A stretch of DNA of 64,000 nt. Source: Rhodovulum sp. MB263. GTDB lineage: Bacteria; Pseudomonadota; Alphaproteobacteria; Rhodobacterales; Rhodobacteraceae. Below, piece after piece: positions 26,539 to 61,862 of this stretch. Both the position numbers and the translations under genes were made by a program. Numbering within the stretch: the first letter of the stretch is position 1; each line of letters opens with the position of its first letter. The notes beneath the pieces are model-generated. The model saw only the letters and a list, made by a program, of their open reading frames with translations, searched no databases and was not told the DNA's origin. Location: positions 682,001 through 746,000 of the forward strand of contig NZ_CP020384.1 in assembly GCF_002073975.1 (NCBI RefSeq). Reading direction: 5' to 3'.

Positions 26539-26675
26539 CGTGCATCCACCAGATTCTGTTGATGAGACCCCAAACTAAGCTATCTGTTGCGGAGTTCAAG
26601 GAACAGCGTCGGTACTCTCGACCCCACCGACCTCCTTTGCCGAGTAATCTTCCGCGCGCATCCGAGGATCCCCAA

Positions 26676-28946
26676 ATGAGCCGTTTCGCCGCCCCCATCG
26701 CCGAGCAGATCTGGGACATGAAATACCGTCTGAAAGGCTCGGACGGGACGCCCGTCGACATGACGGTCGAGGACAGCTGGCGCCGCATCGCCAGGGCGCT
26801 GGCCGAGGCCGAGCCCGAGGCGGAGCGGGATGCCCGCGAGGCGGAATTCTTTGCCGCGCTCGAGGATTTCAGGTTCCTGCCCGCGGGCCGGATCACCGCG
26901 GGCGCGGGCACGGGCCGGGCTGTGACGCTGTTCAACTGCTTCGTGATGGGCACGATCCCCGACAGCATGGCCGGCATCTTCGACATGCTGAAGGAAGCCG
27001 CGCTGACGATGCAGCAGGGCGGGGGCATCGGCTATGATTTCTCGACGATCCGGCCCAAGGGCGCGGATGTGAAGGGCGTGGCGGCGGATGCCTCGGGGCC
27101 GCTCTCCTTCATGGATGTCTGGGACGCGATGTGCCGCACGATCATGTCGGCAGGCTCGCGCCGCGGCGCGATGATGGCGACGATGCGCTGCGACCACCCC
27201 GATATCGAGCAGTTCATCACCGCCAAGCAGGACCCGGCACGGCTGCGGAACTTCAACCTTTCGGTGCTGGTGACCGATGCCTTCATGGAGGCGGTGAAGG
27301 CTGACGGCACCTGGGATCTGCAATTCGGCGGCAAGGTCTATCACACGCTCGAGGCGCGCGATCTGTGGAACCGGATCATGCAGGCGACCTATGACTATGC
27401 CGAGCCGGGCGTGATCTTCATCGACCGCATCAACCAGATGAACAACCTCGCCTATTGCGAGACCATCGCCGCCACCAATCCCTGCGGCGAGCAGCCCCTG
27501 CCGCCCTATGGCGCCTGCCTGCTGGGCTCGATCAACCTCGCGCGCCTTGTCGCCAACCCCTTCGAGGAGGGGGCAGCGCTCGAGGAGGCCGAGCTCGAGG
27601 CGCTGGTCGCGACCGCGGTCCGGATGATGGATAACGTGGTCGACATCTCGCGCTTTGCGCTCGACGCGCAGCGTCACGAGGCCAAGGCCAAGCGCCGGAT
27701 CGGTCTTGGCGTCACCGGGCTTGCCGATGCGCTGCTGATGGTGGGCCTGCGGTACGGCTCGGAAGAGGCGGCGCGTCAGACCTCGCGCTGGTTGCACCGG
27801 ATCGCCCGCGCCGCCTATCTGGCCTCGGTGCAACTGGCCAAGGAGAAGGGCGCGTTTCCGCTTTTCGATGCCGAGCAATATCTCGGAAGCGGTGCGCTGG
27901 CGCATATGGATGCCGATGTGCGTGCGGCCATTGCCGAGCATGGGATCCGGAACGCTCTGCTTACCTCAATCGCGCCCACGGGGACGATCAGCCTTTACGC
28001 GGGCAATGTCTCGTCGGGGATCGAGCCGGTCTTTGCCTACAGCTACAAGCGCAAGGTGCTGCAGCGCGACGGCAGCCGGACCGAGGAGGAAGTGGTCGAC
28101 TACGCCGTCCAGCTCTGGCGCGACAAGTTCGGCGATGCCGAGCTGCCCGAGTATTTCGTGAATGCCCAGACCCTGCCGCCCTCCGAGCATGTGCGGATGC
28201 AGGCGGCGGCCCAGACTTGGGTCGATTCCTCGATTTCCAAGACCATCAACTGCCCCGAGGACATCGCCTTCGATGCCTTCAAGGACGTCTACATGCAGGC
28301 CTATGAAACCGGCTGCAAGGGCTGCACGACCTACCGGCCGAATGACGTGACCGGCTCGGTGCTGAGCGTGTCGGAGAGCTCGGAGAAGACGCCCGAGGCC
28401 GAGACCGGCGCCGATGTCGTCTATCTGTCCGATCCGCTCGACCGGCCGCACGAGCTGGAGGGCAACACCTACAAGCTGAAATGGCCCGACAGCGAGCATG
28501 CGATCTACATCACCATCAATGACATCGTCATCGCCGGTCGCCGCCGCCCCTTCGAGGTCTTCATCAATTCGAAGAACATGGAGCATTTCGCCTGGACGGT
28601 AGCGCTGACGCGGATGATCTCGGCGGTGTTCCGGCGGGGCGGCGATGTGAGCTTCGTGGTCGAGGAACTGAAGGCCGTCTTCGATCCGCGCGGCGGGGCC
28701 TGGATGCAGGGCAAGTATATTCCCTCGATCCTTGCGGCCATCGGCGGCGTGATCGAGCGCCATCTGGTGACCATCGGCTTCATCGAGGCCGAGGGCAAGG
28801 GCCTGAAGATCGATCCGAAATACGAGGAGATGGCGGTTGGCGACACCCCCCGCGGCCCGTCCTGCCCGAGCTGCGGTGCCTATGAGATACGGATGGTGGA
28901 AGGTTGCAGAACATGCATGAGCTGTGGCTATTCGAAATGCCAGTAA
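26676..28946 (+). CDS. nrdJ: Adenosylcobalamin-dependent (class II) ribonucleoside-diphosphate reductase
   Basis: A 756-residue ribonucleotide reductase that uses coenzyme B12 to make the thiyl radical and produces deoxyribonucleotides with or without oxygen. Conserved features are FNCFVMG, the MQQGGGIGYDFS loop, NPCGEQPLPPYGACLLGSIN by its key cysteines, and APTGTIS. The C-terminus has a cysteine-rich tail (CPSCG, CRTCMSCGYSKC) that relays reducing equivalents or binds zinc. I chose ATG 26676, where the family alignment begins (MSRFAAPIAEQIWDMKY); an upstream in-frame extension looks non-coding. No cobalamin riboswitch or clear NrdR box was seen upstream. It is the last backbone gene before the island. 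Confidence 0.93.
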   Translation: MSRFAAPIAEQIWDMKYRLKGSDGTPVDMTVEDSWRRIARALAEAEPEAERDAREAEFFAALEDFRFLPAGRITAGAGTGRAVTLFNCFVMGTIPDSMAGIFDMLKEAALTMQQGGGIGYDFSTIRPKGADVKGVAADASGPLSFMDVWDAMCRTIMSAGSRRGAMMATMRCDHPDIEQFITAKQDPARLRNFNLSVLVTDAFMEAVKADGTWDLQFGGKVYHTLEARDLWNRIMQATYDYAEPGVIFIDRINQMNNLAYCETIAATNPCGEQPLPPYGACLLGSINLARLVANPFEEGAALEEAELEALVATAVRMMDNVVDISRFALDAQRHEAKAKRRIGLGVTGLADALLMVGLRYGSEEAARQTSRWLHRIARAAYLASVQLAKEKGAFPLFDAEQYLGSGALAHMDADVRAAIAEHGIRNALLTSIAPTGTISLYAGNVSSGIEPVFAYSYKRKVLQRDGSRTEEEVVDYAVQLWRDKFGDAELPEYFVNAQTLPPSEHVRMQAAAQTWVDSSISKTINCPEDIAFDAFKDVYMQAYETGCKGCTTYRPNDVTGSVLSVSESSEKTPEAETGADVVYLSDPLDRPHELEGNTYKLKWPDSEHAIYITINDIVIAGRRRPFEVFINSKNMEHFAWTVALTRMISAVFRRGGDVSFVVEELKAVFDPRGGAWMQGKYIPSILAAIGGVIERHLVTIGFIEAEGKGLKIDPKYEEMAVGDTPRGPSCPSCGAYEIRMVEGCRTCMSCGYSKCQ

Positions 28947-45092: not shown

Positions 45093-45134
45093 AATCATGA
45101 CGCGCGCAGATTAACCTTGGAAGGACGACAACCA

Positions 45135-46412
45135 ATGGCCGATGGATCTTGGGCAGACTCGATTTTCAACGCGACGGATGCGATCATGGCGGACGCGTCC
45201 CCGCAAGCTAACGCCCGAGTAGATGCGCTTTCTGCCAGTTGCCCTAACGTTGCGCTTAACGTCGGTATATTTTTTGATGGCACCTTCAACAATGCCGCCA
45301 ACGTAACTGCATTCAACATGAAGCAAACAGACGAAATGGGTGGAAGCTACAACAATTTTCACACCAATGTTTATCGTCTCTCTTTGCTGTATTTCGGGTA
45401 TGAAGACATGGTCCGGGCTCCGTGCGGCGGGCCTGATACAGTTTATCATTCGGCATATGTGGAGGGCATTGGGACCGAAGTTGGTGGCGCAGACAGTGCG
45501 TATACGGGCGCAACCGGGATGGGCGGTAGTGGGTTGGAGGAAAAACTCCAAAAGGGCACGGCAGTGCTGCGTAGCTTTATCAATAGATACGGTGGAATTG
45601 AGCATTTGCGCTCAGTTCAGGTCGATGTCTTCGGCTTCTCACGCGGAGCGGCTACGGCACGGGTTTTCTGCAATGCTGTCGCCGGAATGGGGCAACCGAA
45701 GATAAAAGTTCGGTTTCTGGGAATGTATGACACAGTCGGAAGCTTTGGAATTCCGGGCAATGCGAAAGAGATGGACCCAGTCACCGAAGTCGCCAGCGCC
45801 TATTGCAGTCTATATCGCCTTCTGACACCAACTTGTTGGCTCGTCCCTAGCGAAAGCATGATTGATTTGAATATTACAAAGGAGTCGGCTGAAGTTGTCT
45901 ATCATGTGGTTGCCGATGATGAGTTTCGTTTATTTTTCCCCTCGACCAGTGCGCTTCCCGGGCATGCGACCGAAGTGTTGATGCCCGGCTGTCACGGGGA
46001 CGTTGCCGGATGCACCCCCGGTGTCGGCGTGACCGAGAGGCATATTGATCCGCCACAATTTCTTCTGGATCGGGGCTTTTTTGAGAATGACAGTGTTCTC
46101 ACGATAAACCGCCACTTGTTTAACGAGGGCGATAAGGTGTATATACGTAATGTGGAGACGGGTCTGGCCGCGCCGTCATTTAATGGCATGATGCATCAGG
46201 CTATCCAGGCGGGTGTGCCGCTCCGAGAAAGATACATGGATGTAGTGCGCGATTTGACGGACTTGGATGGCGCGATGAGGTCAGGTAGCAGTCTTCCTGA
46301 GCCGCGCCGCAGACAAATTGCTGGGCGCTATGCACATAGCTCACATGGAGGGGTTGGATCAAATATGCTCGCGCCGAACGGCAGGAGAGAGTCCTACTCA
46401 AATAATCCATAA
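45135..46412 (+). CDS. Type VI secretion lipase effector, Tle1-like (DUF2235)
   Basis: A 425-residue alpha/beta-hydrolase of the DUF2235/Tle1 type. NVGIFFDGTFNNAANV near the N-terminus and VFGFSRGAATARVF carry the family signature; the nucleophile serine is in GFSRG. A later aspartate (MYDTVGSFG) and histidine (MPGCHGDVAGC) may complete the triad. Tle1 members are phospholipases A delivered into rival cells. The ATG at 45135 is chosen over the TTG at 45117, because GGAAGGA lies 9 bases before it. There is no N-terminal signal, as expected for a T6SS cargo. Confidence 0.82.
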   Translation: MADGSWADSIFNATDAIMADASPQANARVDALSASCPNVALNVGIFFDGTFNNAANVTAFNMKQTDEMGGSYNNFHTNVYRLSLLYFGYEDMVRAPCGGPDTVYHSAYVEGIGTEVGGADSAYTGATGMGGSGLEEKLQKGTAVLRSFINRYGGIEHLRSVQVDVFGFSRGAATARVFCNAVAGMGQPKIKVRFLGMYDTVGSFGIPGNAKEMDPVTEVASAYCSLYRLLTPTCWLVPSESMIDLNITKESAEVVYHVVADDEFRLFFPSTSALPGHATEVLMPGCHGDVAGCTPGVGVTERHIDPPQFLLDRGFFENDSVLTINRHLFNEGDKVYIRNVETGLAAPSFNGMMHQAIQAGVPLRERYMDVVRDLTDLDGAMRSGSSLPEPRRRQIAGRYAHSSHGGVGSNMLAPNGRRESYSNNP

Positions 46413-47025: not shown

Positions 47026-50000
47026 TTATCTCCGGCCGGGCTTGCCCAAAGGGCGCTGCCGCTTTCCGGCGTCTAGTTCGCCACTTGTTCGCTTGCCTAC
47101 TTGGCGTTCCTTCTTCGACTTTCCGGTGCAATCTGGGAAACGGACGCAGCCCAGGAAGGTCCCGTATCGTCCTTTGCGTTCCACGAGCCAGCCGTCGGTA
47201 CATTCCGGACATGGCTCCTGGACGGCTCCGCACTCCCCGCAAATCTTCTCACCTTTCGGTTCCTTTCGAACCGGAAGCCCGGTGCCGCAAGCTGGGCACG
47301 GGGGCATGCGGTTGCCGCAGTGTTTGATGTGCTCGCAGCGGTACCAGCCTGGCCCTTCACCGCCGGGCAGAAATAGCAGGCGCCCGCCACATTGCCCGCA
47401 GGTGTGAGTGCGCTCCTGAGCCTCGCGTGGGGTGGCTACGTCATAGGCGGGATCTTTCATTAGTTCGGTGACGAAAGTTGACGGGCGTGCCTCGGACGCC
47501 AAGATCGTGACCGTGCTCCGCGCTCGGGTCATGGCGACATACATCACGCGGCGCTCTTCAGCGTTGGCGAAAGGTTCCGCTTCGGGCGAGACAAGGGCGA
47601 GAAGGGGGTCGTCAACGATCATCGATGGAAAGCCCATGCGTGCGCTATCGGCGCCGAGCAGGATAACGTGGTCGGCCTCCAGACCCTTTGAGGCATGGAT
47701 GGTCTTGAAGGTGATCGTCAGGTCCGAATGCCGCCGCCGGAGGTTGTGCATGTCGGGCTCGACAAAGCGGTAACGGCCCAGCAAGAGCACCGTGGCCTTG
47801 CGACCGGGAGGAGCGGGCTCTGCCGCCAGAGCTTTCAGGGTTTCGTTCAGTACCTGGTCGCCGGACTCGCGCCGGGTCCATGCGATCCGGATCGCGGGAT
47901 GCTCTGCCTCGCCGGCAGGAACAACCGTCTTGGTGATCTGCGCCGGGTTGCAAAGCACGAAGCGCCGGGCGACCAGGGCGATCTTGTCGACCGATCGGAA
48001 CGTCCGTCCGAGGTCCACCGTGCGGTGGACACCTGAGTGCGCTGCGAAGACGCCGCCGAACTCGCGACCGAAGTTGCGCATGATGTGGATGTCGGATCCG
48101 GCAAACCGGTAGATGGACTGCCAGTCGTCGCCTACGGCAAATATCCTCGCCTCCGCATGCTGGTTCTTGAGCGCCTGGATCAGCCGCGCCCGGCCGGTCG
48201 AGATGTCCTGGAATTCGTCGACAAGGATATGGCGGAATGGGCTGTCGTAGCGCCCGCTTTCCACCAGCGCGGTCGCGCGATTCACCATGTCTTCGAAATC
48301 GATGCGCTCGCCCAGCCTGTCCTGATACTCGCGATACACCGCCCCGAATATCTTGAGAAAGGCCTCGCCGCGTTTGCCCATCTTCAGGGTCGCGGCCTTC
48401 GTCTCGCAATCATCCAGGTGATACCCACCATTCTTGAAGTGACGCAGGAAGGTCGCGATCAGTGAGGTGAAGCCGTCCACGACACCAAGGGACGTAACGC
48501 TGTCGTAGATTTCGAGGGCCGGGCGCGGGCGGAGCGTGACATGCGGCGCGACCTTCTCTGCCAGCGCCTCGAGCAGGCGGCCGTCCTCGTTCTCCCAGCT
48601 ATAGGTTTCGATCAGGATCGTCTCGTGTTCGGCATGGACCTGGCGCTTCCACGCCATGCTCTCCAAGTAGGCATCGCGGTCGATGAAGGGGGCGGTCGTC
48701 AGCTCCTCCGAACCGTCCTTCCGCGTCGTCTTGCGGACGCCGAAATGCTCAAGATAGACGCCGCTCTCAGTGAGCCGGAAGTCCGGCGTGTAGGCGCGCC
48801 TGCCGGTCCCGCCCAGTTTGTGCTCGTAGGTCGGCTCGTATTCGTAGGCGATGCCGTTCAGGTACAGCCAGTTGGCGATCATCAGCTCCTCGAAGCTGGC
48901 GACGGTGTCGCCCTTCAGGCTTCGCAGGTTCCGACTTTCAACCTCGGAATACCACTTGTGGGCGGAGTCGTAGTCCCATGCATTGGGGATGTCTTCGAAG
49001 AAGCCGGCGAACCAGCCCACCACGGTTCCGGCGATGTCGGCCATCCGGCTCACGATGTCGCGCAGGATGTCCTTGATCAATTGGAGGAAGGCCTTGTCGT
49101 CGGTCGCCGTCGGTGCGAGGGGCGGCTTTTCGCCCTCGACCGTGCCGATGATCTCGTAGGCCAGGGCGTGGAAGGTGCGCGCCATGATCGGCACGCCGCA
49201 CCGAGCCTCGATGCGCTCGGACATTTCGGTGGCGGCATCCTTGGCAAAGGCCAGGAGCAGAAGCTCATGCGGCTGCCTGATACCGGCCTTCACCAGATAG
49301 GCGGCCTTGGCGGTGATGACCGAGGTCTTGCCCGAGCCCGCGCCAGCGAGGACCAGCGTTGCATCCTCGTCGACCACGACGGACAGCCGCTGCTCCGGCG
49401 TCAGCGGCATGGACTCGACGGTATCGAAGAACTCTTTCCAGTCCGTCAGCTGCTGGTCGACGAAGGCCGCGATCGCCGCATCGCGGAGTTGCTCTGGATT
49501 ACGCGCGAGCTCCGTGATCGGAGCCAGCCGCGCCATCGTCTCCTCGCCCAGGGCTGCCGGGGTGAGCTTCTTCAGGACGCGGGCGTCGAGGTCGGCGGCC
49601 TGGCTTGCGGCCGGGGCTACCAGGCAGGCGGCGGGATATCTCGCCGGTGCCTTCAATCCCTCAATCGCCGTCATCAGAGACGCAATTGCGTCGTCTTCCT
49701 TGGAAAGCTGGGCAAGATTGTAGCCTGACCAGGCTGTCTCGACAGCTTGCGCGAATGCTCTGGCGGCGGCCTCCTGGACCCCGGGCAGCAGGACGCAGGG
49801 CTGGATGCCGAGATTTAGGGTGAGGCGGGCTGAGACACGACCACGCTGCACGACGGGAGCTGCTGTGATCTCCGAGAGGTGAATCCTGGCATTCGCGCCG
49901 CCGGACGTCGCAATCGTGTCGTCCTCGAGTGCCAGCGCTCGCGGGTGCTTGCGGAAGGGGTCAGACAGGAAGGCGGGCAGTGGGCGCGATACAAGTTTCA

Positions 50001-50034
50001 TCGAAATCCAGAGGTCGAGTTCCATCTCCGACAT
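47026..50034 (-). CDS. UvrD/Rep-family helicase with inserted nuclease-like segment and zinc ribbons
   Basis: A 1002-residue superfamily 1 helicase related to DNA helicase IV. Motifs: Walker A LAGAGSGKTS (about residues 231-240), Walker B LVDEFQDIS, GDDWQSIYRFAGSD, and motif VI VMYVAMTRARS. Between helicase motifs the segment YEYEPTYEHKL, then YTPDFRLTESGVYLEHFGV, looks like a PD-(D/E)xK-type nuclease insertion. The C-terminus (about 880-975) has three topoisomerase-type cysteine pairs (CGQCGG, CPACG...CGECG, CPECTDG). A lysine/arginine tail follows. The N-terminal ~220 residues are not recognised. It stands alone. A role in defence or repair is possible. Confidence 0.82.
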   Translation of the reverse strand: MSEMELDLWISMKLVSRPLPAFLSDPFRKHPRALALEDDTIATSGGANARIHLSEITAAPVVQRGRVSARLTLNLGIQPCVLLPGVQEAAARAFAQAVETAWSGYNLAQLSKEDDAIASLMTAIEGLKAPARYPAACLVAPAASQAADLDARVLKKLTPAALGEETMARLAPITELARNPEQLRDAAIAAFVDQQLTDWKEFFDTVESMPLTPEQRLSVVVDEDATLVLAGAGSGKTSVITAKAAYLVKAGIRQPHELLLLAFAKDAATEMSERIEARCGVPIMARTFHALAYEIIGTVEGEKPPLAPTATDDKAFLQLIKDILRDIVSRMADIAGTVVGWFAGFFEDIPNAWDYDSAHKWYSEVESRNLRSLKGDTVASFEELMIANWLYLNGIAYEYEPTYEHKLGGTGRRAYTPDFRLTESGVYLEHFGVRKTTRKDGSEELTTAPFIDRDAYLESMAWKRQVHAEHETILIETYSWENEDGRLLEALAEKVAPHVTLRPRPALEIYDSVTSLGVVDGFTSLIATFLRHFKNGGYHLDDCETKAATLKMGKRGEAFLKIFGAVYREYQDRLGERIDFEDMVNRATALVESGRYDSPFRHILVDEFQDISTGRARLIQALKNQHAEARIFAVGDDWQSIYRFAGSDIHIMRNFGREFGGVFAAHSGVHRTVDLGRTFRSVDKIALVARRFVLCNPAQITKTVVPAGEAEHPAIRIAWTRRESGDQVLNETLKALAAEPAPPGRKATVLLLGRYRFVEPDMHNLRRRHSDLTITFKTIHASKGLEADHVILLGADSARMGFPSMIVDDPLLALVSPEAEPFANAEERRVMYVAMTRARSTVTILASEARPSTFVTELMKDPAYDVATPREAQERTHTCGQCGGRLLFLPGGEGPGWYRCEHIKHCGNRMPPCPACGTGLPVRKEPKGEKICGECGAVQEPCPECTDGWLVERKGRYGTFLGCVRFPDCTGKSKKERQVGKRTSGELDAGKRQRPLGKPGRR

Positions 50035-50876: not shown

Positions 50877-51419
50877 ATGTCGAATTACGAAGACTGGTTG
50901 CAGGACCAACCGGCACCCAAGAAGGAACAGCCAGCCCTGGTGGTGGCGCCGATCCACGGGGTTCTGCCCTATGCAGGTGACCGCAATCCGTTGACTCGAA
51001 GCGACACAGTCAAGCGTGTGTCGACAGCTCTCGCAACGCCGATGACGGGCGGCATCCGGCAGGTTTACCATTTCGATGGCGAGTCCGAATACGCCGTCGC
51101 CCTGGATGCCCTTCGCAGCCCCGAACTCTATGGACTGGAAGTGCAGCTTGCCCCTGTTTACTACTATTGCCGTCGCCAGAGGGGTGTGTACCCCCATCAT
51201 TTCGATTTGCGGCTGACCTTCAAGGATGGGTACCGGCGTGCGGTCTTCGTGCGCAACGCGACGAGCTTGGCGAAGCGCGAAACCCAAGACGAGATCGACG
51301 ACATCTTCGCCGCAGTGACCGAGGACTTCGCTGACGACGCCATGGTCGTCTGGCTATTGCTACGCTTTGAGGAGTGTTTCGGAAGCATCGGGACAAGACT
51401 CTCCGCCGGCCTTCACTGA
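50877..51419 (+). CDS. TnsA-like nuclease-fold protein (possibly inactive)
   Basis: A 180-residue protein. HFDGESEYAVALDALRSPEL, EVQLAPVYYYC and HHFDLRLTFKDGYRRAVFVR have the spacing of TnsA-type endonucleases (acidic residue, Q-P-like strand, D in the FDL strand, then the basic position). The expected lysine of the VEVK strand is replaced (VFVRN), so catalysis is doubtful. No TnsB or TnsC partner is nearby. The stop lies 8 bases before a small inverted-repeat element, so the C-terminus could be altered. The family call is tentative. Confidence 0.4.
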   Translation: MSNYEDWLQDQPAPKKEQPALVVAPIHGVLPYAGDRNPLTRSDTVKRVSTALATPMTGGIRQVYHFDGESEYAVALDALRSPELYGLEVQLAPVYYYCRRQRGVYPHHFDLRLTFKDGYRRAVFVRNATSLAKRETQDEIDDIFAAVTEDFADDAMVVWLLLRFEECFGSIGTRLSAGLH

Positions 51420-51426
51420 GTCTCCC

Positions 51427-51574: not shown

Positions 51575-51611
51575 TAGGGTGGGAGTGTACAGGGTAGGAA
51601 CGCGTTGCTGC

Positions 51612-52310
51612 CTAGGAATGCAAATGCAACTCACTGCGCCGCATCGCGGAGAACAGGTCAGGCTCAAGGTCTTCCATGACATCCGCATATAGGCTCTCCA
51701 TCGTTGCCAAGAACTCGCTTTGCCCGCCATAACTGGGGTGGCGAACCTTTGAGACATTCCCACACGAGACCGCTGAGGAAACAACCTTATAGGCATCGTT
51801 TCCAACGGCGATTATACGTTTTGGCCTCAAATACTCTACGATGTGAACAAGTATATCGGTCCCAGCCCTTCGCTCCTTTGCGTTATGGGCGCGATTAGTG
51901 AATGGCTTATTTTCTTCGAAAGGGTGGAGCGGGAAGACATTCCACAAAAAAATGGGCACCTGAACCTGAAGCAAGATATTCCAAATCACCGAGGCGGTCC
52001 GCTCTGCCACTGGCTCTCCATACGTTGGCCGTTCAGGCTCCAGACCCCAGCGACTCAAATGGCTCGAAAAATGGACATCATCTGTGAGAGCAAGTCCGGT
52101 TCTTCTGCCGCCACGATAGCCGAGATCACGTCCGACCCAGATAGCATCAAGATCGGCTACGGCTGCGCGTTCTAACATTGCGTGCAGATAAAACCGCCTG
52201 ATTTCAGGGGCTTCTTTGGAATCGTGATCGGGGCATCGCTCGAAGTAGGGGTTGAAGGTGTTCTCAAAATCTAGGTGTTCTAAGGCCTTAAGTATATCAT
52301 CCGCGCTCAC
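51612..52310 (-). CDS. Uracil-DNA glycosylase superfamily protein
   Basis: A 232-residue UDG-fold protein. IWVGRDLGYRGGRRTGLALT is the expected active-site loop region, FLWNVFPLHPFE follows the second strand, and VRHPSYGG carries the HPS motif. It may excise uracil or another damaged or modified base from DNA; some members of the superfamily act only in defence contexts. It starts 2 bases after the MazG-like gene and is the last of the four-gene minus-strand operon. The exact UDG family is unclear. Confidence 0.75.
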   Translation of the reverse strand: MSADDILKALEHLDFENTFNPYFERCPDHDSKEAPEIRRFYLHAMLERAAVADLDAIWVGRDLGYRGGRRTGLALTDDVHFSSHLSRWGLEPERPTYGEPVAERTASVIWNILLQVQVPIFLWNVFPLHPFEENKPFTNRAHNAKERRAGTDILVHIVEYLRPKRIIAVGNDAYKVVSSAVSCGNVSKVRHPSYGGQSEFLATMESLYADVMEDLEPDLFSAMRRSELHLHS

Positions 52311-52312
52311 AG

Positions 52313-53461
52313 CTACGTTCCTTTCAGCGGCCTGTACTCAATGGTCCTCCTATCTCGATCTCCGACCACGATACCACCATTATTCTCACGCATCTGACGA
52401 AAGACCCCATACCCCTGTAGGATGGCAGTCTCCCAAAGATTAAGCGGGCATCTCTCAACCTCGTAACCGCGAACGAAGTTGCTCACAGCCTTCAGTAAAT
52501 CGAAGGAGACGGAGGTCTGATTTTCAAAGAAGTTCAATGCTTTAGCATGCGCGAAGATGTAGGCGGATACGCCCTCATCGACAACAATTGCTCGGCCACT
52601 GTCCTGCGCCTCATCAACATTGGGATCACTCTTGCGCTTATGTTTGATCAATGCTCTGAAGGTCGGGGACCAGTGCAGAATGGCTGCGTTCGAAAAATGG
52701 AAAACGTCATGAAAGCGATAACCGTCTGGGTCCGCGATATTGTCCGTGAGCGGGTCCCCGATAAAAACTCCATTCCATCTAAGGTAGCTTCTTCCATTCG
52801 ACCTTTGCGTGATCTCTATCTCAAATCGACGCGGAAGTTGCTCCTCTGTTGGAAAGCCGGAATCGAAGTCAGGAAGAGACTCTGGAGACGGTTTCAGGAA
52901 GCGTCCAGTAGACTTTCGAATGTTTGATTTCAAGACTTCAGAGAAGGACACTCCTGACGCCTGCACGGCCTGAATGTAGGCGCGTACAAATTCAATCATT
53001 ATGGGCTTGGCAATCTTCTCATCAGACTCGATGCCAAGAAGTCGGGCGGATTCTTCTCCTAGTTTTAATAAGACGTCGTCGAGTGGTCCAAGGCCTTTTG
53101 CTGTCATCACACGTGCTATGGGGGCGCTTGGATCCGAATTTGCGGTGATATCTGCGGCAAACTGATCGTCTGAAGTCCCCTCAACGAAAAGCTCGGACAA
53201 GCTGAGTTTGAGCCTCCTGCAAAGCGCAGCAACATACCAAAGCGTGTCGCCCAGCTCTTCTTCAACGTCGCGTCGATACCCAGCTTCAAAGGCGCCCTTC
53301 TCCCGATGAAGCTTCTTGGAAGTGCTCATGACGCTGCCGACTTCACCAAAAAGACCGAGCAATATCGGCGTAATCTCATCGTCAGTAAAACGATCTGTGA
53401 GCGCAACGGATTTCTCGTAATCAGAAATTGAAATCTGGGGCATGCTTCTTAAATTTATCAT
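52313..53461 (-). CDS. MazG-like nucleoside triphosphate pyrophosphohydrolase
   Basis: A 382-residue protein. The N-terminal all-alpha NTP pyrophosphohydrolase domain has GLFGEVGSVMSTSKKLH and VEEELGDTLWYVAALCRR, the metal-binding acidic set of MazG-like enzymes. The C-terminal part (GYRFHDVFHFSNAAILHWSP; SGRAIVVDEGVSAYIFAHAK) matches a MazG_C-type domain with an HxxxH. It should hydrolyse NTPs or dNTPs to the monophosphate. The ATG at 53461 overlaps the stop of the upstream Nmad2-like gene (ATGA), and the UDG gene follows 2 bases after its stop. Confidence 0.82.
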   Translation of the reverse strand: MINLRSMPQISISDYEKSVALTDRFTDDEITPILLGLFGEVGSVMSTSKKLHREKGAFEAGYRRDVEEELGDTLWYVAALCRRLKLSLSELFVEGTSDDQFAADITANSDPSAPIARVMTAKGLGPLDDVLLKLGEESARLLGIESDEKIAKPIMIEFVRAYIQAVQASGVSFSEVLKSNIRKSTGRFLKPSPESLPDFDSGFPTEEQLPRRFEIEITQRSNGRSYLRWNGVFIGDPLTDNIADPDGYRFHDVFHFSNAAILHWSPTFRALIKHKRKSDPNVDEAQDSGRAIVVDEGVSAYIFAHAKALNFFENQTSVSFDLLKAVSNFVRGYEVERCPLNLWETAILQGYGVFRQMRENNGGIVVGDRDRRTIEYRPLKGT

Positions 53462-54084
53462 TTCCGTTTTCGTGCCTCTTCTATCATGTCATATGGTCGA
53501 CCTTGATAGCCTTGGATGCCAAGATCGGCTAACCAAACTTCAAAACTATCTATCACATCCTGGTGGCAAATTTTCTTGCGCCCGACCCCAGAGTGTATGA
53601 GGCCGGCATCGCGTAATTCCTGAGGAATCAGCGGCCCTTCAGCACCGAAATAGATGAATTCAGAGGAAATAAGAACCCGGTTCACTGAGGTGCCGCGGTT
53701 AATATGCTTCTGAACAGGCTTTCCATCCATGGTGCTGTGGTACGAGTTGAGCTGATCCCAGCGTCCGTTGCCAGGGTCAGGGCTGTATATATTATCTCCG
53801 CATGCCTTCCGGTAACTGCTGTGCAGATTGGGCTTTTTGCCAGAAAAGCGTGGATCATTCCAGTACTCGAAGAATGTCAATGCTTCCTGGACCCTCATCG
53901 CATGGACGAGATGCCCTCCACGTCGCACCCCTTTGCGATTGCTGCCGGTGCCAACGACCCAGTCCCCAATAGCGGCATGCTGCCTGATGCTAGGCTTGCA
54001 GGTTGCCAAAGTGCAAAATCCATAAAATGGATTGGGTGCAAACCCACTATCGAAGCGCACAACGTAGCTGTGGAGGGCTTTCAT
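53458..54084 (-). CDS. Nmad2-like (nucleotide-modification-associated domain 2) protein
   Basis: A 208-residue protein. Its opening, YVVRFDSGFAPNPFYGFCTL then ATCKPSIRQHAAIGDWVVGT, and later ACGDNIYSPDP, match the Nmad2 group first described computationally in operons for modified DNA bases. No activity is established. It starts 9 bases after the TIR-like gene and overlaps the MazG-like gene by 4 bases, so all four genes of this operon are likely co-translated. Role in sensing or handling a modified base is inferred. Confidence 0.75.
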   Translation of the reverse strand: MKALHSYVVRFDSGFAPNPFYGFCTLATCKPSIRQHAAIGDWVVGTGSNRKGVRRGGHLVHAMRVQEALTFFEYWNDPRFSGKKPNLHSSYRKACGDNIYSPDPGNGRWDQLNSYHSTMDGKPVQKHINRGTSVNRVLISSEFIYFGAEGPLIPQELRDAGLIHSGVGRKKICHQDVIDSFEVWLADLGIQGYQGRPYDMIEEARKRK

Positions 54085-54093
54085 TCTATACCC

Positions 54094-54570
54094 TCATGCG
54101 CACGGATGGCGGCGAATAGCGCGGGGTGGGAGAGGCTGACCTTTTGGGTCCTCAAAGCGCTCGTATTCTCCATTAATCGCATCGATGATCCTATCAGCGT
54201 TCCAGCCGACGATCGCGTCGCCGTACTCATCAAGCGCTTCCGGAACTTCACAACCGTTCGATCCCTGCTCCCAAACACCGACGATGGTCTTGCCTTTTTC
54301 ACGAGCCCGCTCGATCTCCCAAGTCACCCACTCACTGTTTTTTGTTTCCGGAGTGATATAAACTATAAGTGTGCTAGCCCAATCAATTCTGGGCGCAAGA
54401 ATTTGAGATTTAATGTAGTCTGGAGATTTTGCGTTGTTGGGCTTGTCTGAGTTTATGGAGCCGTCCCTGACCTCCATCCCCTTACTTTTCAGAAGATTCT
54501 TCAGATCGGCTAATCCTGCATCGTCTTCGTGGATGTGGCTAATAAAAACATTTTTGCTGCCCTTGCTCAT
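54094..54570 (-). CDS. TIR-like (MTH538/DUF1863) domain protein
   Basis: A 158-residue single-domain protein. KNVFISHIHEDDAGLADLKN, then STLIVYITPETKNSEWVTWE, give the flavodoxin-like TIR core; E85 in SEWVTWEIERA is the position of the catalytic glutamate in NAD-cleaving TIRs. This is the family of the Thoeris ThsB sensor. The ATG at 54570 was chosen, because the alignment begins right after it. It heads the four-gene operon. Its start is 107 bases from that of the divergent TIR-SLOG pair, so the two operons share a promoter region. Confidence 0.82.
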   Translation of the reverse strand: MSKGSKNVFISHIHEDDAGLADLKNLLKSKGMEVRDGSINSDKPNNAKSPDYIKSQILAPRIDWASTLIVYITPETKNSEWVTWEIERAREKGKTIVGVWEQGSNGCEVPEALDEYGDAIVGWNADRIIDAINGEYERFEDPKGQPLPPRAIRRHPCA

Positions 54571-54677
54571 TGATGGTATCCTCTGCTTCACACTACATGC
54601 TGACGTCCGCGCAGTCACTTCCACGATATCATGTGTCCGGCGCGCGCTCAGATCAAGTCCGATAGTCAAGGAAATCG

Positions 54678-55931
54678 ATGCTACCGCCAATCATCGAAGT
54701 TTTCATCGTCTGGCATCCGCAGGATACGTCGGGTCTCCAGACGGCTGATGCGATATTCAAACACTTCATGCATGGCCCGACATTCTCAGGTGTCATTGGG
54801 GGAGGGATTCAGGTCTCCTTTCGCAGCACGCCTTGGGAAGGCTCCGGAACCGCACCAAGGCCGATCTACAATAGCGCTCATCCTGCTCCGAACGGTATCC
54901 GACCGGCCAGGTTCACTGTGATCGTTCCTCTACTTGGCACAGAACTCGCCGCTAGCGTCGAGGACGAAACGTCGAGTTGGTGTCGATACATCGCTGCGCT
55001 CCAAGAGGATCAGGCGCGAGCACCCGGTGAAATCGGAATCTACCCCTTTTTGCTGTCAGGCGGTGCCACGAATGGTACGAAGTTAGGCGATATTTTGGGG
55101 GGCTATCAGTTCGTCGCTGCCGGGAGGCCTGAGCAGCTTGGTGAAAGCCAACTGAGCATGCTGTGCCGCGATCTAACGCAAGGAATAGCTCAGCTGGTCT
55201 CGCCGGATGAGATGGATCGATTGACAACCTTCATTAGCCACACCAAGCGTCATAGCAGCTCTGAAGGTGAAGACGTTGACGCCTTGGTCGATTTAGTGCG
55301 TGAAGTCATTGGGAATACGCGGCTGCGCGAGTATTTCGATGCCAGTGACCTTCAGCCAGGCTCTGACTGGGATGCTGAGCTCAGAGGGAATGCTAGTCAG
55401 AGCGCGATGCTGGCCATTCGTACCGATCTCTACGCCAGCCGCTCGTGGTGTCAGCGCGAAATTGCCTTGGCGAAAACCAATGGCATGCCGGTGATAATGA
55501 TGGACGCTATCGGCTTTGGTGAGGAGCGCGGCTCCTTTCTGATGGATCATGTCCCACGAGTGGCGGTTCGAAAAGTCGATGGCCGCTGGCAGAAAAGGGA
55601 TGTCTATCGTGCCCTCAATCTGCTCGTAGACGAGTGCCTTAAGAGGGCGCTCTGGCTACACCAAAAAGATCTATCCGGCGAGCGCCCGGAGCTGGATATA
55701 GCCTGGTGGGCACCCCATGCGCCCGAGCCGCTAACCCTACTCCATTGGATCGGCTCTCAGCTCGCGTCCGGAGTTCTGAGGGAGGCAGAGGGTGCCTTGC
55801 GCATACTGCATCCTGATCCGCCTCTCGGAGAGGCCGAGCGGGAGGTACTACAAGAATATGCAAAGAGCACACAGCTGGGCCGTGATATCGACATAATGAC
55901 ACCACGCCAGCTTGCGACCAGAGGAGGTTAA
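54678..55931 (+). CDS. TIR-domain protein
   Basis: A 417-residue protein with a TIR domain in residues ~185-300: TTFISHTKRHSSSEGEDVD, YFDASDLQPGSDWDAELRG and YASRSWCQREIALAK, with E261 as the likely catalytic glutamate. The first 170 residues (IEVFIVWHPQDTSGLQTADA; RFTVIVPLLGTELAASVED) may form a second, degenerate TIR-like Rossmann fold. The C-terminal 100 residues are not recognised. An AAGGAA site precedes the ATG. It is coupled to the SLOG gene, which starts one base after its stop. NADase or cyclic-ADP-ribose-type activity is inferred. Confidence 0.82.
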   Translation: MLPPIIEVFIVWHPQDTSGLQTADAIFKHFMHGPTFSGVIGGGIQVSFRSTPWEGSGTAPRPIYNSAHPAPNGIRPARFTVIVPLLGTELAASVEDETSSWCRYIAALQEDQARAPGEIGIYPFLLSGGATNGTKLGDILGGYQFVAAGRPEQLGESQLSMLCRDLTQGIAQLVSPDEMDRLTTFISHTKRHSSSEGEDVDALVDLVREVIGNTRLREYFDASDLQPGSDWDAELRGNASQSAMLAIRTDLYASRSWCQREIALAKTNGMPVIMMDAIGFGEERGSFLMDHVPRVAVRKVDGRWQKRDVYRALNLLVDECLKRALWLHQKDLSGERPELDIAWWAPHAPEPLTLLHWIGSQLASGVLREAEGALRILHPDPPLGEAEREVLQEYAKSTQLGRDIDIMTPRQLATRGG

Positions 55932-55932
55932 A

Positions 55933-56784
55933 GTGGCCGACGATAAGCAAAGGGCCGAACTGCTGCCTGCAGATGCCTTGAAAGGCAAGCGCTTAGGAAT
56001 TTCTGTCTCGAATAGCCCGGACCTCGATCGTCTAGGCCTCACTGAGACCCACTTCCGCATGACCTTGGGAGAACTCGTGCGCTCCGTTGTCATCGCGGGC
56101 GGTGACCTCTATTACGGTGGGCACTTGCAGCCCGAAGGCATCACGACTTTCCTCATCGAAGAACTTCATCGCTATGGTCGCCGTGACAGGCCTCTGAAGG
56201 TTTGCTTGGCGTGGAGCATTCATCGGTCGATGAGCAAGGAACAGATCGCCGAACAGAAAGACTTCCTTGGTCTCTTTGGTGAGATTCACTTCTTGGACAG
56301 CGATGGGGTTCGTCTGGAGGGCCCTCTGAATGAGCAGCCAGTAAGCGAGTTCTCTTCCACAGAAAGGGCCATGGCGCTCAGTGGCTTGCGCAATTACATG
56401 GCAAAGAACACCGACGCCCGCATTGTAGTCGGTGGAAAACGCGATGGTTTTGAAGGCGCTATGCCTGGCATCGTAGAAGAAGTCTTGCTCTCTCTTGAAA
56501 ATAAACAGCCTGTCTTCTTGGCGGGTGGGTTCGGCGGCGCCACGGTGGACATTATCCGCGTTCTCCATCCTGGAAGTGCAGAATGGCTTCCTGTGAGCCC
56601 AGAGCCAAAATATGATTCCCGCTTATTGGATAGTCTTGAACGGGTTGCAGAAGTTGCCACCCGGATGGAATGGGATGGTTTGGAGAATGGCTTGAGTGAA
56701 GAGGAGAATAGCCTCCTCGCAGCCTCATATCGGCCAAGCGAAATAGCAGCTCTCGTAGGGCGCGGACTCGGGAGGGTTCTATAA
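55933..56784 (+). CDS. SLOG-domain (LSDAT-type) protein, TIR-associated
   Basis: A 283-residue protein. LGISVSNSPDLDRLGLTETH, then IAGGDLYYGGHLQPEGITT, and RIVVGGKRDGFEGAMPGIVE with PVFLAGGFGGATVDI, are typical of LSDAT-like SLOG domains that bind nucleotide-derived ligands, here linked to TIR proteins. No effector domain is fused to it. The GTG at 55933 is chosen, because GAGGAGG lies 5 bases upstream; a TTG at 55912 inside the TIR gene is the alternative. It would sense or process the nucleotide made by the TIR protein. Confidence 0.78.
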   Translation: MADDKQRAELLPADALKGKRLGISVSNSPDLDRLGLTETHFRMTLGELVRSVVIAGGDLYYGGHLQPEGITTFLIEELHRYGRRDRPLKVCLAWSIHRSMSKEQIAEQKDFLGLFGEIHFLDSDGVRLEGPLNEQPVSEFSSTERAMALSGLRNYMAKNTDARIVVGGKRDGFEGAMPGIVEEVLLSLENKQPVFLAGGFGGATVDIIRVLHPGSAEWLPVSPEPKYDSRLLDSLERVAEVATRMEWDGLENGLSEEENSLLAASYRPSEIAALVGRGLGRVL

Positions 56785-57133
56785 GACTGACGTTCCCTTA
56801 AGATATATACTTCGCCTCGAATGATGGGCGCCAAAAATGTCAAGGAGCACTTGACTAGTCGATCATACAAAAAAGGCGTGACGGGCGATGATTGATTGAC
56901 CGCATTCTCCGCCTCTGAGATATCTGATTTAACTGTGTAGCGGAGGTTTTAGGCTCATCAAGGCCACCAAGGAGTGGAACTCAAGAAAGCAATAATGCCG
57001 ACCCCAATAAGCTGAGGCGATGGTAAAGGGACATTTTCTGGCGTACGCGGGAGCATCATTCGTCTGAGGAGAAGACCTCCATCGTGTTGGAATGGCTGCG
57101 TGCGACGGGCGCTGCCTGCCAAGCGCAGCGCTT
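56785..57133. other. Non-coding stretch, no gene seen
   Basis: About 350 AT-richer bases after the SLOG gene. No hairpin terminator with a T-tract was found. Confidence 0.45.
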
Positions 57134-57625
57134 TCAACTGAGCTCGTTCCCGTGCTCCACATCATGCCAGTGCTTGTTTACGGGCAGTTTCGCAGCCCGA
57201 CTGACGATGTCGGAAACCCGCACGGGGCGAAAGTCCCACTGGTCGACGCCTACGTTCACGCTGTTGCGGGAGCCGGGCCATTGGTCGTGAACATGGCCGA
57301 AGAGCTGCAAAGCACCCCGCCGAGCGCCGTTCCATGTGATCATCGGGTAATGGCACAGGACGAGGCTTTGATCGCCGTCCTTGATCTCTGCCATGTACTC
57401 GGTGCTTGCCCAGGGTAGCGAGATCACCGCTTCATCATCGTGGTTGCCGATGATCAGGTGCTTGCGCCCAGGGAGGCTGTGAAACCAGCTTTCGAACTGT
57501 GCTGTATCCTCGGCGCGTCCGAACGCGAAATCCCCCAGAATCCACAGGTCATCGTCATGACGGACGCAGGCCTGGAAGTTTGCGATCAACGCGGCGTTCA
57601 TCTCGGATGTCGAGGCATGCTGCAT
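57134..57625 (-). CDS. Metallophosphoesterase lacking its N-terminal motif
   Basis: A 163-residue calcineurin-like phosphoesterase. LWILGDFAFG, HLIIGNHDDE, VLCHYPMITW and LFGHVHDQ give the GD, GNHD, H and GHxH motifs. The first motif (DxH), expected ~15 residues before the ATG, is missing; upstream sequence in frame reads NLTRTGISLL instead. So the 5' end was lost or mutated, and activity is doubtful. It lies just inside the right direct repeat. Confidence 0.7.
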   Translation of the reverse strand: MQHASTSEMNAALIANFQACVRHDDDLWILGDFAFGRAEDTAQFESWFHSLPGRKHLIIGNHDDEAVISLPWASTEYMAEIKDGDQSLVLCHYPMITWNGARRGALQLFGHVHDQWPGSRNSVNVGVDQWDFRPVRVSDIVSRAAKLPVNKHWHDVEHGNELS

Positions 57626-59933: not shown

Positions 59934-60726
59934 ATGGAACTCAAGTGGCTTGAAGACTTTCTCAGCCTCGCGGCGACGCGCAGCTTTTCGGCATCGGCCG
60001 AGGAGCGGCATGTCACGCAATCCGCCTTCAGCCGCCGTATCCGTGCGCTGGAAAGCTGGGTGGGCGCCGAGCTTCTCGACCGGTCGACCTATCCCGTCGC
60101 CCTGACCGAGAGTGGGCTCGCCTTTCAGGAAACGGCCGAAGAAGTCGTCCAGCTGCTTCATGCGAGCCGGGCCAAGCTGGGCGGCCACGGTGGCGCGATG
60201 CTGGCCCCTGTGACGATTGCGATTGCGGCGCTGCATAGCCTGACCATGACCTTCCTGCCCAACTGGCTGACGCAGATGCGGCAGCGGCTGGGCGATCTGT
60301 CCAGCAGGGTGCTGCCCGAGAACCACGCGCAGTGCCTTCAGGCGCTTACCGAGGGCGGTTATGACTTCATGCTGACCTACCACCACGACAGCCTGCCGTT
60401 GGCGCTGGACCCGGTGCAGTATCCGCATCTGACCATCGGGCAGGACAATCTGACCGCGGTGGCGAACCCGCTGCACTTCCCGCTCGACCGGCCGTGCCAG
60501 AGTCTGCCGCTCTTGCAATACTCACGCGGGTCGTTCCTCTTCCGGCTGAGTTCGTTGGCGCGTGGCCGTGACGGCACGCCGGACATGCATGTCGTCCACA
60601 TCAATGAAACGTCTTTGGCCGAAGCGCTGAAGTTCATGGTGCTCGAGGGGCATGGCGTCGCCTGGGTGCCGGAGGCGCTGGTCACCACCGAACTGGCGGA
60701 TGGGTGGCTGGTCCGCATGTCCTGGA
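59934..60726 (+). pseudogene. LysR-family regulator truncated by an IS110 fragment
   Basis: The first ~264 residues are a normal LysR protein: HTH MELKWLEDFLSLAATRSFSA then VTQSAFSRRIRALE, and a ligand-binding domain to GHGVAWVPEALVTTELADGW. After LVRMSWTD the frame enters transposase sequence in a wrong frame, so the last ~30-40 residues are foreign. It may still bind DNA. Confidence 0.75.
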
Positions 60727-61267
60727 CGGATCTGAGCCGGACATTCCCGAGATCGGGCAGGACGTCATTCGCGTCCTTTGCCGGCAGCTTCTGTCGACCG
60801 ATTACCTCGTGCGCTGGCATGACCTGCGGCTGCAGGCCGTGGCGCGGGCGGACCGCCGGATGAAACTGCTGCAGACCATTCCGGGCGTCGGACCGGTTAC
60901 GGCCTCGGCAATCGTCGCCACCATCGGCAGCGGCCGTCAGTTCCGCAACGGACGTGAGTTTGCTGCATGGCCAGGGCTGACACCAAGGAACAATTCCAGC
61001 GGGGGCAAGGAAAGGCTGGGCAGGATCACGAAGATGGGGGATCAGTACCTGCGCAAACTTCTCGTGGTCGGCATGACCTCGCGCGCCATGCAGGTGAAGG
61101 TCCGGCCGGACAAGGGAGACCCGTGGCTGAGAAAGCTGCTGGAGAGAAAGCCGTTCCGGCTGGCAACCATCGCCATGGCCAACAAGACGGCCAGGATCAT
61201 CTGGGCCGTCTTGACACGGGAGGAAGCCTGGTCGCCGCGACCTGCATGTGCATGTGCATGTGCATGA
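60720..61267 (+). pseudogene. IS110-family transposase, C-terminal half
   Basis: The frame reads PEIGQDVIRVLCRQLLS, RRMKLLQTIPGVGPVTASAI, REFAAWPGLTPRNNSSGGKE and RITKMGDQYLRKLLV, the C-terminal transposase_20 half of the IS1111/IS110 group. The N-terminal DEDD domain is absent. It ends in cysteine-methionine-like codons from a hexamer repeat. Confidence 0.8.
61243..61266. repeat. Short tandem repeat (TGCATG)x4
   Basis: Four perfect copies of the hexamer TGCATG at the 3' end of the IS110 fragment. Such short repeats often vary in copy number. Confidence 0.8.
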
Positions 61268-61489
61268 TGCGGGAAGCCCGACACATAGAATAGCAAGACC
61301 GACGAGATGATGGAGACACCCACAGCCGCGAAACCGGGAGAACCCGCCGAACGTCCGGGGCGCTATAGCCCGCAAAGTTGACAGGGACCCGGGCCGCGGA
61401 AGCCATCAGGGCCAGCGGTTGCAAGGCCGCGCAAACAGGCCGGACACACGACCTCCTCTGAATGGGTGAATTAAAGTCATTTCCCGCTT

Positions 61490-61862
61490 GCTATGCAGGA
61501 GCCATCCACACATGACGTTCTGGGCAAGCGCGCCGGGCGCGGGGCCCTCAAATTGCTCAAGCGTCCGGTGCGCTTCGAGTGGCGTCTTGTTTCCCAGAGA
61601 CGAGTGCGGTCTGACGGCGTTGTAATCGTAGCGCCAGAGCGCCAGCTTCCGGCGGGCGTCGTCCAGGCTATCGAAGATCTCCTCGTTCAAGAGCTCGTCG
61701 CGCAGGCTGCCATTGAAGCTTTCGATGAAGGCGTGCTGCTGCGGTTTGCCCGGGTCGATGTAATGCCAGGGCACCTCGTTCTTGTCGGCCCACTTCAGGA
61801 TGGCGCGGCTGGTGAACTCGGTGCCGTTGTCGCTGACGATGCAAGCGGGCTTTCGCGTCTAA
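61490..61862 (-). pseudogene. IS3-family OrfB, C-terminal fragment
   Basis: The minus-strand frame reads [40 protein letters not shown] and [20 protein letters not shown], holding the second D and the E of the DDE triad. The 5' half is missing from ~61862 and the 3' end reads through into other DNA. It is a different IS3 member from the one at 32863. Confidence 0.75.

Follow-up and report, generated by a model that had tools for sequence, protein, structure and literature searches.

In a 64,000-nucleotide stretch of DNA from Rhodovulum sp. MB263 (contig NZ_CP020384.1, positions 682,001 to 746,000; hereafter the window, from whose first letter its positions are counted), we identified a compact six-gene cassette at 51612–56784, consisting of two divergent units. 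Judging from sequence comparisons, we lean toward reading this cassette as a mobile Thoeris-like immune system, in which a constant four-gene sensor-and-signal core would be combined with an exchangeable effector, and in which alternatives for two core components, the UDG and MazG proteins, are left open. The core occupies the minus strand and encodes, in order, a ThsB-type TIR protein (54094–54570, with its ATG at 54570; 158 residues), the predicted signal maker; an Nmad2 protein (53458–54084; 208 residues), a predicted PUA-like reader of modified bases; a protein with a MazG domain and a MazG C-terminal domain (52313–53461; 382 residues); and a UDG-superfamily protein (51612–52310; 232 residues). 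On the plus strand, a second TIR protein, TIR2 (54678–55931; 417 residues), the predicted effector enzyme, is followed by a SLOG cluster2 protein (55933–56784, GTG start; 283 residues), the predicted signal receptor of TIR2.

The tight packing described in an initial annotation, made from the sequence alone, held up on re-examination: UDG and MazG are separated by 2 bases, MazG and Nmad2 overlap by 4, Nmad2 and the core TIR are 9 bases apart, TIR2 and SLOG are 1 base apart, and the start sites of the two units enclose a divergent intergenic region of 107 bases (54571–54677). The GAGGAGG noted between TIR2 and SLOG is present (55921–55927), located within the last codons of TIR2 and not in the 1-base gap. 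All domain calls were borne out by Pfam: ThsB_TIR for the core TIR (PF08937, 80.7 bits), Nmad2 (PF18753, 250.2 bits), MazG_C (PF18722, 277.7 bits) together with MazG (PF03819, 19.9 bits, slightly below the cut-off of 22), UDG (PF03167, 27.3 bits; cut-off 24.3), TIR_2 for TIR2 (28.7 bits at residues 185–267; cut-off 28) and LD_cluster2 for the SLOG protein (PF18163, 193.6 bits). Among the Pfam matches of the six genes there was no thymidylate synthase, hydroxylase or kinase family, so that no base-making enzyme was recognized, and by the same matches the six genes do not make up a phage-type base hypermodification operon. Strong PADLOC matches were limited to the core TIR; TIR2 had one weak match (E 0.008), and the window's Nmad2, MazG_C, UDG and SLOG proteins had none in PADLOC 2.0.0.

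Conservation of the four-gene core

Scanning genome contigs with an Nmad2 alignment yielded 542 relatives, of which the best 80 were kept; with the window itself and six loci from whole-genome searches, these form a set of 87 loci (labeled L), or a non-redundant set of 69 after removal of Nmad2 proteins at least 90% identical. Two further entries, L018 (on the contig of L049) and L016 (on the contig of L066), were left out of the 87, while the residue counts given below take in both L016 and L066, plus the window itself; the Nmad2 of L112, which has a stop in its frame, was excluded from the alignment (A5). By record title, the loci belong to Proteobacteria, Acidobacteria-type groups (Bryobacterales, Vicinamibacteraceae), Gemmatimonadetes, Chloroflexi (Dehalococcoidia), Ignavibacteriae, Poribacteria, Omnitrophota and Binatota, with many of them metagenome-assembled. 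A ThsB-type TIR gene lies immediately before Nmad2 on the same strand in 84 of the 87 loci (66/69 non-redundant), and within approximately 5 kb of Nmad2 a MazG gene is found in 82 and a UDG gene in 69. All four core genes fall within 3.5 kb in 68 loci, and in 66 of these they follow the order TIR-Nmad2-MazG-UDG on one strand. This four-gene arrangement is far above chance.

Several loci depart from this arrangement in ways that stand on their own. Two divergent TIR-Nmad2 pairs occur in each of L102 (7621–10624) and L107 (7805–10639), an arrangement that would suit two sensors of differing specificity feeding a common set of effectors. On two contigs from a viral collection (L135 and L137), Nmad2, MazG and UDG are retained, and the expected place of the TIR gene is taken by a gene for a protein of 144–165 residues without a Pfam match. 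In L131 and L132, a distant Nmad2 adjoins an Nmad3 protein (PF18754, 213 and 278 bits) with no TIR match, possibly representing a separate base-modification system. A DNA-level search of Escherichia coli genomes with a Pseudomonas core (L083) gave no match.

Exchangeable partners of the core

Partners of the core were assigned within 5 kb by neighbor clustering, Pfam, PADLOC and NCBIfam, and fall into five modules (A–E). Module A, the TIR2 plus SLOG cluster2 pair of the window, occurs in 23 of the 87 loci, 14 of which have the window's divergent layout as determined by script; L092 also has it as judged by eye, with TIR2 in two frames. Module B, a TIR with a SLOG cluster3 protein, occurs in 28 loci; in all 28, the SLOG protein matches the NCBIfam model of Thoeris type III ThcA and the TIR protein that of ThcB4 (E ≤ 1e-20). 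Module C is a membrane protein of about 228 residues (13/87), the members in L084 and L090 having 860–887 residues; that of L084 has a patatin match below the cut-off, and L090 resembles it. Module D is a SIR2-STALD protein (6/87), recognized by PADLOC as ThsA in 6/6, and module E is a patatin (9/87), carrying a SLOG domain in seven cases. At least one of these modules was found in 71 of the 87 loci (57/69 non-redundant). Five more loci have a membrane protein that is either 8xMP/PDC-M50A-like (L054, L068, L106 and L109, with L054 and L106 assigned solely by similarity to L068 and L109) or of the SLATT type (L026), bringing loci with an effector or membrane partner to 76 of 87 (62/69 non-redundant). 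A CBASS-type lipase is also among the partners.

Accessory TIR, SLOG and effector matches, in families delimited within 8.5 kb of Nmad2, number 0.54 per kb in the first kb of flank and drop to less than 0.01 per kb at 6–8 kb. To trace the partner type on the Nmad2 tree, each locus with several modules received a single label according to a fixed order of priority. At least 18 changes of partner result when six rows without a recognized effector are omitted, and 24 if these are counted as a state. One core has therefore met many partners. The stretches examined in L081, L088 and L097 showed no TIR other than that of the core and no SLOG effector other than a SIR2-STALD protein; as PADLOC recognizes this partner as ThsA, the core TIR is the evident candidate for ThsB at these loci, and the simplest reading is that it plays this part. 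The six genes as one indivisible unit were considered and rejected, given that the exact divergent layout is found in just 14 of the 87 loci. The co-occurrence raised in the initial annotation thus stands for the core, which is constant, and for the coupling of the two units; it does not extend to TIR2-SLOG, which is one of several plug-in modules and is also found without the core. Within the 14 aligned loci, the divergent region measures 89–112 bases and is poorly conserved (mean column identity 52%), with no conserved operator found; promoter and terminator scans yielded no more than they did in shuffled sequence.

The cassette moves as one block

By blastn, positions 51575–56856 of the window are common with Rhodobacter sp. 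NTK016B (L039, 7230–12510) at 91.6% identity. The edges of this block lie 37 bases beyond the UDG stop and 72 bases beyond the SLOG stop, showing that the six genes move as one block with edges just beyond the gene ends. On the UDG side, L039 continues with a 77-base match to 51348–51424 and then with DNA that matches window positions 26665–28807 at 80%, which places the cassette at different locations in two related chromosomes. A further piece, 57109–57617, is also common to both, at another distance from the cassette. Nmad2 is absent from 15/15 other genus genomes and from 9/9 other family members searched, so that the cassette occurs in just 1 of 16 genomes of the genus. We conclude that the cassette is mobile. 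Its guanine-plus-cytosine fraction (0.51–0.57 over 52–57 kb) differs from the 0.60–0.66 found over most of 47–51 kb and 59–64 kb; a low value (0.53) is also found at 45–47 kb.

Occurrence of the modules apart from one another

Loci in which parts of the cassette occur separately provide natural controls. Among 385 genomes of the class, MazG_C was found at 15 places in 13 genomes, eight with Nmad2 and seven without. All eight places with Nmad2 have an adjoining TIR gene, that of genome G091 being degenerate, and none of the seven without Nmad2 has a TIR, SLOG or effector match in the stretches examined, two of which (L019 and L023) lie near a contig end. SLOG cluster2 was found in 6 of the 385 genomes, three of which have it beside the core. 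SLOG cluster3 occurs in 8 of 398 genomes of the phylum, seven of them above the cut-off, and in none of the six of these 398 genomes that have Nmad2. Since the TIR partner is kept at all seven above-cut-off SLOG cluster3 loci, TIR plus SLOG appears to be a self-standing module with which the core becomes associated.

Three of the MazG_C loci (L025, L028 and L029) carry a protein with the HMUDK_hel domain, discussed below, and L025 and L029 add an IrrE-type peptidase (PF06114) fused to a chagasin-like domain. These loci could represent another conflict system built on the same base-handling genes.

Conserved residues and predicted folds

The core TIR matches the PADLOC ThsB model PDLC00418 with 221.4 bits over residues 5–157, and a profile of its relatives matches the structures 6lhy and 9b7d, the latter named ThsB1. 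Two glutamates singled out in the initial annotation proved conserved: E85 of the core TIR is a glutamate in 83 of 84 cluster sequences, the window's included (the exception being L111), and E261 of TIR2 is invariant in 21/21 aligned rows. The core TIR thus has the ThsB-type domain and catalytic glutamate that Thoeris requires.

In 23/23 loci that have both TIR2 and SLOG, the two genes adjoin each other on the same strand with a gap or overlap of at most 25 bases. The structure model of TIR2 (mean predicted local distance difference test score, pLDDT, 81.4) has TIR folds among its Foldseek matches, and its secondary structure suggests an N-terminal Rossmann/TIR-like domain, a TIR domain and a C-terminal alpha/beta domain. 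Two-lobed sugar isomerases were set aside as kin of TIR2, their Foldseek TM-scores of less than 0.25 being taken as chance pairing of Rossmann-like lobes.

Eight aligned UDG relatives are 38–59% identical, with the motifs RDLGYRGGRRTG and RHPSYGGQ invariant. In the UDG cluster, R61 and D62 are each present in 67 of 68 sequences, N124 in 68/68, and H191-P192-S193 in 67/68, with one gap. The protein is not a family 4 UDG by NCBIfam, scoring 14.8 bits for UDG_fam4 and 15.8 bits for Arch_udg (cut-offs 125.3 and 250). The UDG of L100 (5417–6109) is the sole homologue of the 68 with Glu-Ala replacing Arg-Asp at positions 61–62. In the MazG protein, E40, E69, D72, H251, D252 and H255 are each conserved in 81/81 homologues. 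For Nmad2, an AlphaFold2 model was obtained with a pLDDT of 93.1, whose top 15 Foldseek matches are mostly ASCH, EVE-type, THYN1 (with 5-methylcytosine DNA), McrB-N and YTH structures, the best with an E-value of 0.037. Taking the assignment to EVE and the grouping of these matches as PUA-like to be correct, we find a weak resemblance of the Nmad2 model to PUA/EVE/ASCH-like folds.

Possible links to modified pyrimidines

UDG was not found in 18 of the 87 loci, and in 10 of these 18 a protein with the HMUDK_hel domain is encoded near the core, as against 0 of the 69 loci with UDG (Fisher 1e-8); the two proteins exclude each other. HMUDK_hel is named for the helical domain of 5-hydroxymethyldeoxyuridine DNA kinases. 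The 348-residue protein of L052 matches it with 355.7 bits. Relatives of this L052 protein are present in 485 of 50,697 phage records, Salmonella, Pseudomonas and Escherichia phages among them, and one of the 25 phage matches listed carries the annotation alpha-glutamyl/putrescinyl thymine pyrophosphorylase. These findings suggest that the core handles modified pyrimidines, the simplest candidates being thymines derived from 5-hydroxymethyluracil.

Nmad2 was rejected as a common phage gene, with 0 matches in the 50,697 phage records; it occurs in 18 of 72,556 plasmids and at four loci on viral contigs. One of the latter, L134, is an element that carries an integrase along with the complete core and partners of the ThcA/ThcB4 type. 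Phage matches to the MazG protein came from six records and involve the MazG domain alone, covering 15–23% of the query.

Proposed mechanism and alternative explanations

To our knowledge, how Thoeris TIR proteins detect infection is largely open. The nearly constant placement of a TIR gene before a gene for a base-reader-like protein, accompanied by a nucleotide hydrolase and usually a glycosylase, suggests a testable answer for one branch of Thoeris, in which modified bases are the trigger. We consider it likely that the cassette provides signaling immunity with the core TIR as the maker of the signal; granted this, a modified-pyrimidine trigger seems to us evenly balanced between right and wrong. 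In the model that follows, we infer the trigger, the signal, the order of action and the anti-phage role. Nmad2 would bind a modified base or nucleotide that arises in the course of phage infection and is probably a 5-substituted uracil, for example 5-hydroxymethyluracil or a hypermodified thymine. UDG would excise the modified base and MazG/MazG_C would act on the corresponding nucleotide, steps that could either expose the trigger or serve as a direct attack of their own, with the HMUDK_hel protein presumably taking the place of UDG in some relatives. The ThsB-type TIR, encoded first in the operon, would then be switched on to make a NAD-derived signal, which the separate SLOG protein would bind, turning on TIR2 and leading to NAD depletion or another form of cell arrest. 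In relatives, the effector role may be taken by ThsA (SIR2-SLOG), ThcA/ThcB4, patatin-SLOG or membrane proteins, with NAD loss or membrane damage as the outcome. Tentatively, one might go further and regard the core as a dedicated reader of phage base chemistry, in which Nmad2 and UDG (or a captured HMUDK_hel protein, related to phage enzymes of thymine hypermodification) would recognize hypermodified thymines derived from hydroxymethyluracil, and their product or complex would switch on the ThsB-type TIR of the operon, whose signal could feed into type I, type III or other effectors. Base modification, by which phages escape restriction, would in that case act as the trigger of nucleotide-signaled immunity; we regard this form as possible rather than probable.

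A number of observations weigh against the immune-system reading. The set of 87 loci favors Nmad2 proteins closely related to that of the window, and a distance of 8.5 kb from Nmad2 was already part of how the neighbor families were delimited. No TIR above threshold was found in three of the 87 loci (L086, which lies at a contig end, L104 and L027), nor was there a TIR match near the distant Nmad2 proteins of four genomes (L130–L133), of which L133 has a weak SIR2-STALD match (72 bits). Eleven of the 87 loci have no recognized effector, six of them being short or near a contig end (L065, L076, L080, L085, L086 and L111). At least two of the 18 loci without UDG (L085 and L101) are cut by a contig end near the place of UDG, and the protein of L052 matches the helical domain alone with no kinase domain, so that the HMUDK_hel protein need not be a kinase. 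Position 43 of the MazG protein, the place of the second glutamate in MazG proteins, is Gly in 47, Ser in 28, Ala in 3 and Glu in 3 of 81 homologues; because it is not Glu in 78, pyrophosphohydrolase activity is unsure. Finally, the Nmad2 model has no Foldseek match at an E-value of 0.001, and Nmad2 may bind RNA or nucleotides.

Four alternatives were weighed against the same data. In the first, which we consider unlikely, UDG (or the HMUDK_hel protein) is the true weapon against modified phage bases, with TIR and SLOG as back-up or regulator. There is a precedent in Brig1, a UDG-superfamily glycosylase that, according to the available text of its description, protects against T4 by excising alpha-glucosyl-hydroxymethylcytosine and lies near a ThsA-like gene (PMC11078745), and the UDG motifs of the core are conserved in 67/68 homologues. 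The resemblance, drawn at the level of the superfamily, extends to the defense-island setting and the nearby ThsA-like gene; however, Brig1 alone gave immunity, whereas here UDG is one of four coupled genes (PMC11078745, same text). Moreover, TIR is retained in 15 of the 18 loci in which UDG was not found, and effector modules are retained beside the core in most loci.

Second, the TIR could be triggered by the nucleotide pool in place of phage DNA, with MazG/MazG_C watching for modified or depleted (deoxy)nucleoside triphosphates in infected cells. Triggers based on nucleotides have precedents in other systems, a MazG_C-type MazG is present in 82 of the 87 loci with its histidine and aspartate residues invariant (81/81), and a dCTP deaminase-like gene adjoins L104, though L104 has no TIR. 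Nevertheless, the UDG family acts on DNA bases and Nmad2 weakly resembles base readers, and we hold such a pool sensor to be rather unlikely.

Third, a TIR-SLOG NADase pair and an operon for nucleotide-pool or base hygiene might be independent neighbors sharing a defense island. This would fit the TIR2-SLOG pairs that have no core match in the stretches examined (L126–L128, L127 being a short contig), the seven TIR plus SLOG cluster3 loci in genomes without Nmad2, and the finding of the core with other partners. It is hard to square with the core's own first gene being a TIR, directly before Nmad2 in 84 of 87 loci, with the movement of the six genes as one block with edges at the gene ends, with a divergent layout kept in 14 loci, and with the lack of any TIR or SLOG match at the seven MazG_C loci without Nmad2, all of which make independence improbable. 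Last, an operon that hypermodifies or repairs the host's own DNA, with a regulator of the TIR type, is suggested by the MazG_C relatives without TIR beside HMUDK_hel genes (L025, L028 and L029) and, in L020, by a neighboring protein whose match to thymidylate synthase is weak and under the cut-off (15 bits), but is very hard to credit given the lack of a recognized base-synthesizing enzyme in the cassette, its patchy distribution (1/16 genus genomes) and partners that include ThsA and a CBASS-type lipase.

The immune-system reading agrees with the initial proposal of a conflict system in which TIR and SLOG are tied to modification of bases or nucleotides; this proposal is supported, as are the domain calls, the coupling of the units and the conservation of the catalytic-type residues. 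If true, the reading would link phage DNA hypermodification to TIR signaling and account for the association of both type I and type III Thoeris effectors with this four-gene core. Nmad2, MazG_C and UDG, which PADLOC 2.0.0 misses, could in addition serve as marker genes for gene-finding tools.

Relation to known systems

The general logic of Thoeris has already been described (PMC11204291 and PMC12948488, in their available text). Like Thoeris type I, the cassette has a ThsB-type TIR with a conserved glutamate and a SLOG receptor, and six relatives have a PADLOC ThsA. In contrast to type I, SLOG and enzyme are separate proteins, and the TIR gene shares a tightly packed operon with those of Nmad2, MazG_C and UDG. 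As anticipated in the initial annotation, there is no canonical ThsA: no SIR2, STALD or ThsA match, and hence no SIR2 plus SLOG(STALD) protein, was found among the ten window proteins scanned, which also gave no macro-domain match; a ThsA combining transmembrane and macro domains would mark Thoeris type II. Thoeris type III (ThcA, NF058525; ThcB4, NF058526) is likewise a pair of a separate SLOG and a large TIR protein, and is a partner of the core in 28 of 87 loci; however, the window's SLOG protein is of the LD_cluster2 and not the LD_cluster3 type and has no NCBIfam match, and TIR2 scores 14 bits against the ThcB4 cut-off of 220. We found no paper on type III in the open-license literature searched.

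The DefensePredictor study (PMC13092281, 2026), in its available text and figure legends, names the same domains: MazG, MazG-C, NMAD and (in a legend) UDG are among predicted defense systems, with citation of Burroughs 2015, NMAD is named in the legend of the figure on validated systems, and the validated systems include ones with 5-hydroxymethyluracil kinase and thymidylate synthase. The core may overlap with Fig. 6F of that paper. Its main text, as available, differs in containing no TIR, Thoeris or SLOG. PADLOC further lists a candidate, PDC-M50, comprising a membrane protein A and a TIR protein B; similarly, the core of L109 adjoins a PDC-M50A-like protein next to a ThsB_TIR-type protein. 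PDC-M50 is a candidate only, and its definition as seen here does not include the Nmad2 core.

In the open-license literature searched, we found no description of the core combined with TIR, SLOG and Thoeris effectors that can be exchanged, although earlier mention elsewhere is possible; Thoeris together with UDG led to the Brig1 paper alone, Thoeris together with MazG gave no result, and Nmad2 led to unrelated matches only. The initial claim that no described system has this content therefore stands for the six-gene combination within that literature, and needs qualifying in two respects: partners of the relatives are type III ThcA/ThcB4 (28/28) and ThsA (6/6), and MazG, MazG-C, NMAD and UDG are listed as predicted in the available text and legends of PMC13092281.

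Features surrounding the cassette

To the left of the cassette, the window encodes a Tle1-like lipase-type protein of type VI secretion systems (45117–46412; PF09994, 59 bits) and a UvrD-type helicase with a topoisomerase-type zinc ribbon (47026–50034). To its right, a metallophosphatase-like gene (57134–57625, minus strand) has Pfam and NCBIfam matches under the cut-offs and is 93% identical to L039 4247–4807; its 5' end seems cut when compared with the 186-residue frame of L039. Further on, 60704–61774 contains a piece of an IS110-type transposase (PF02371, 93.5 bits) and a piece of an integrase-core transposase (rve_3, 99.9 bits), and four perfect TGCATG units lie near these transposase pieces at 61243–61266.

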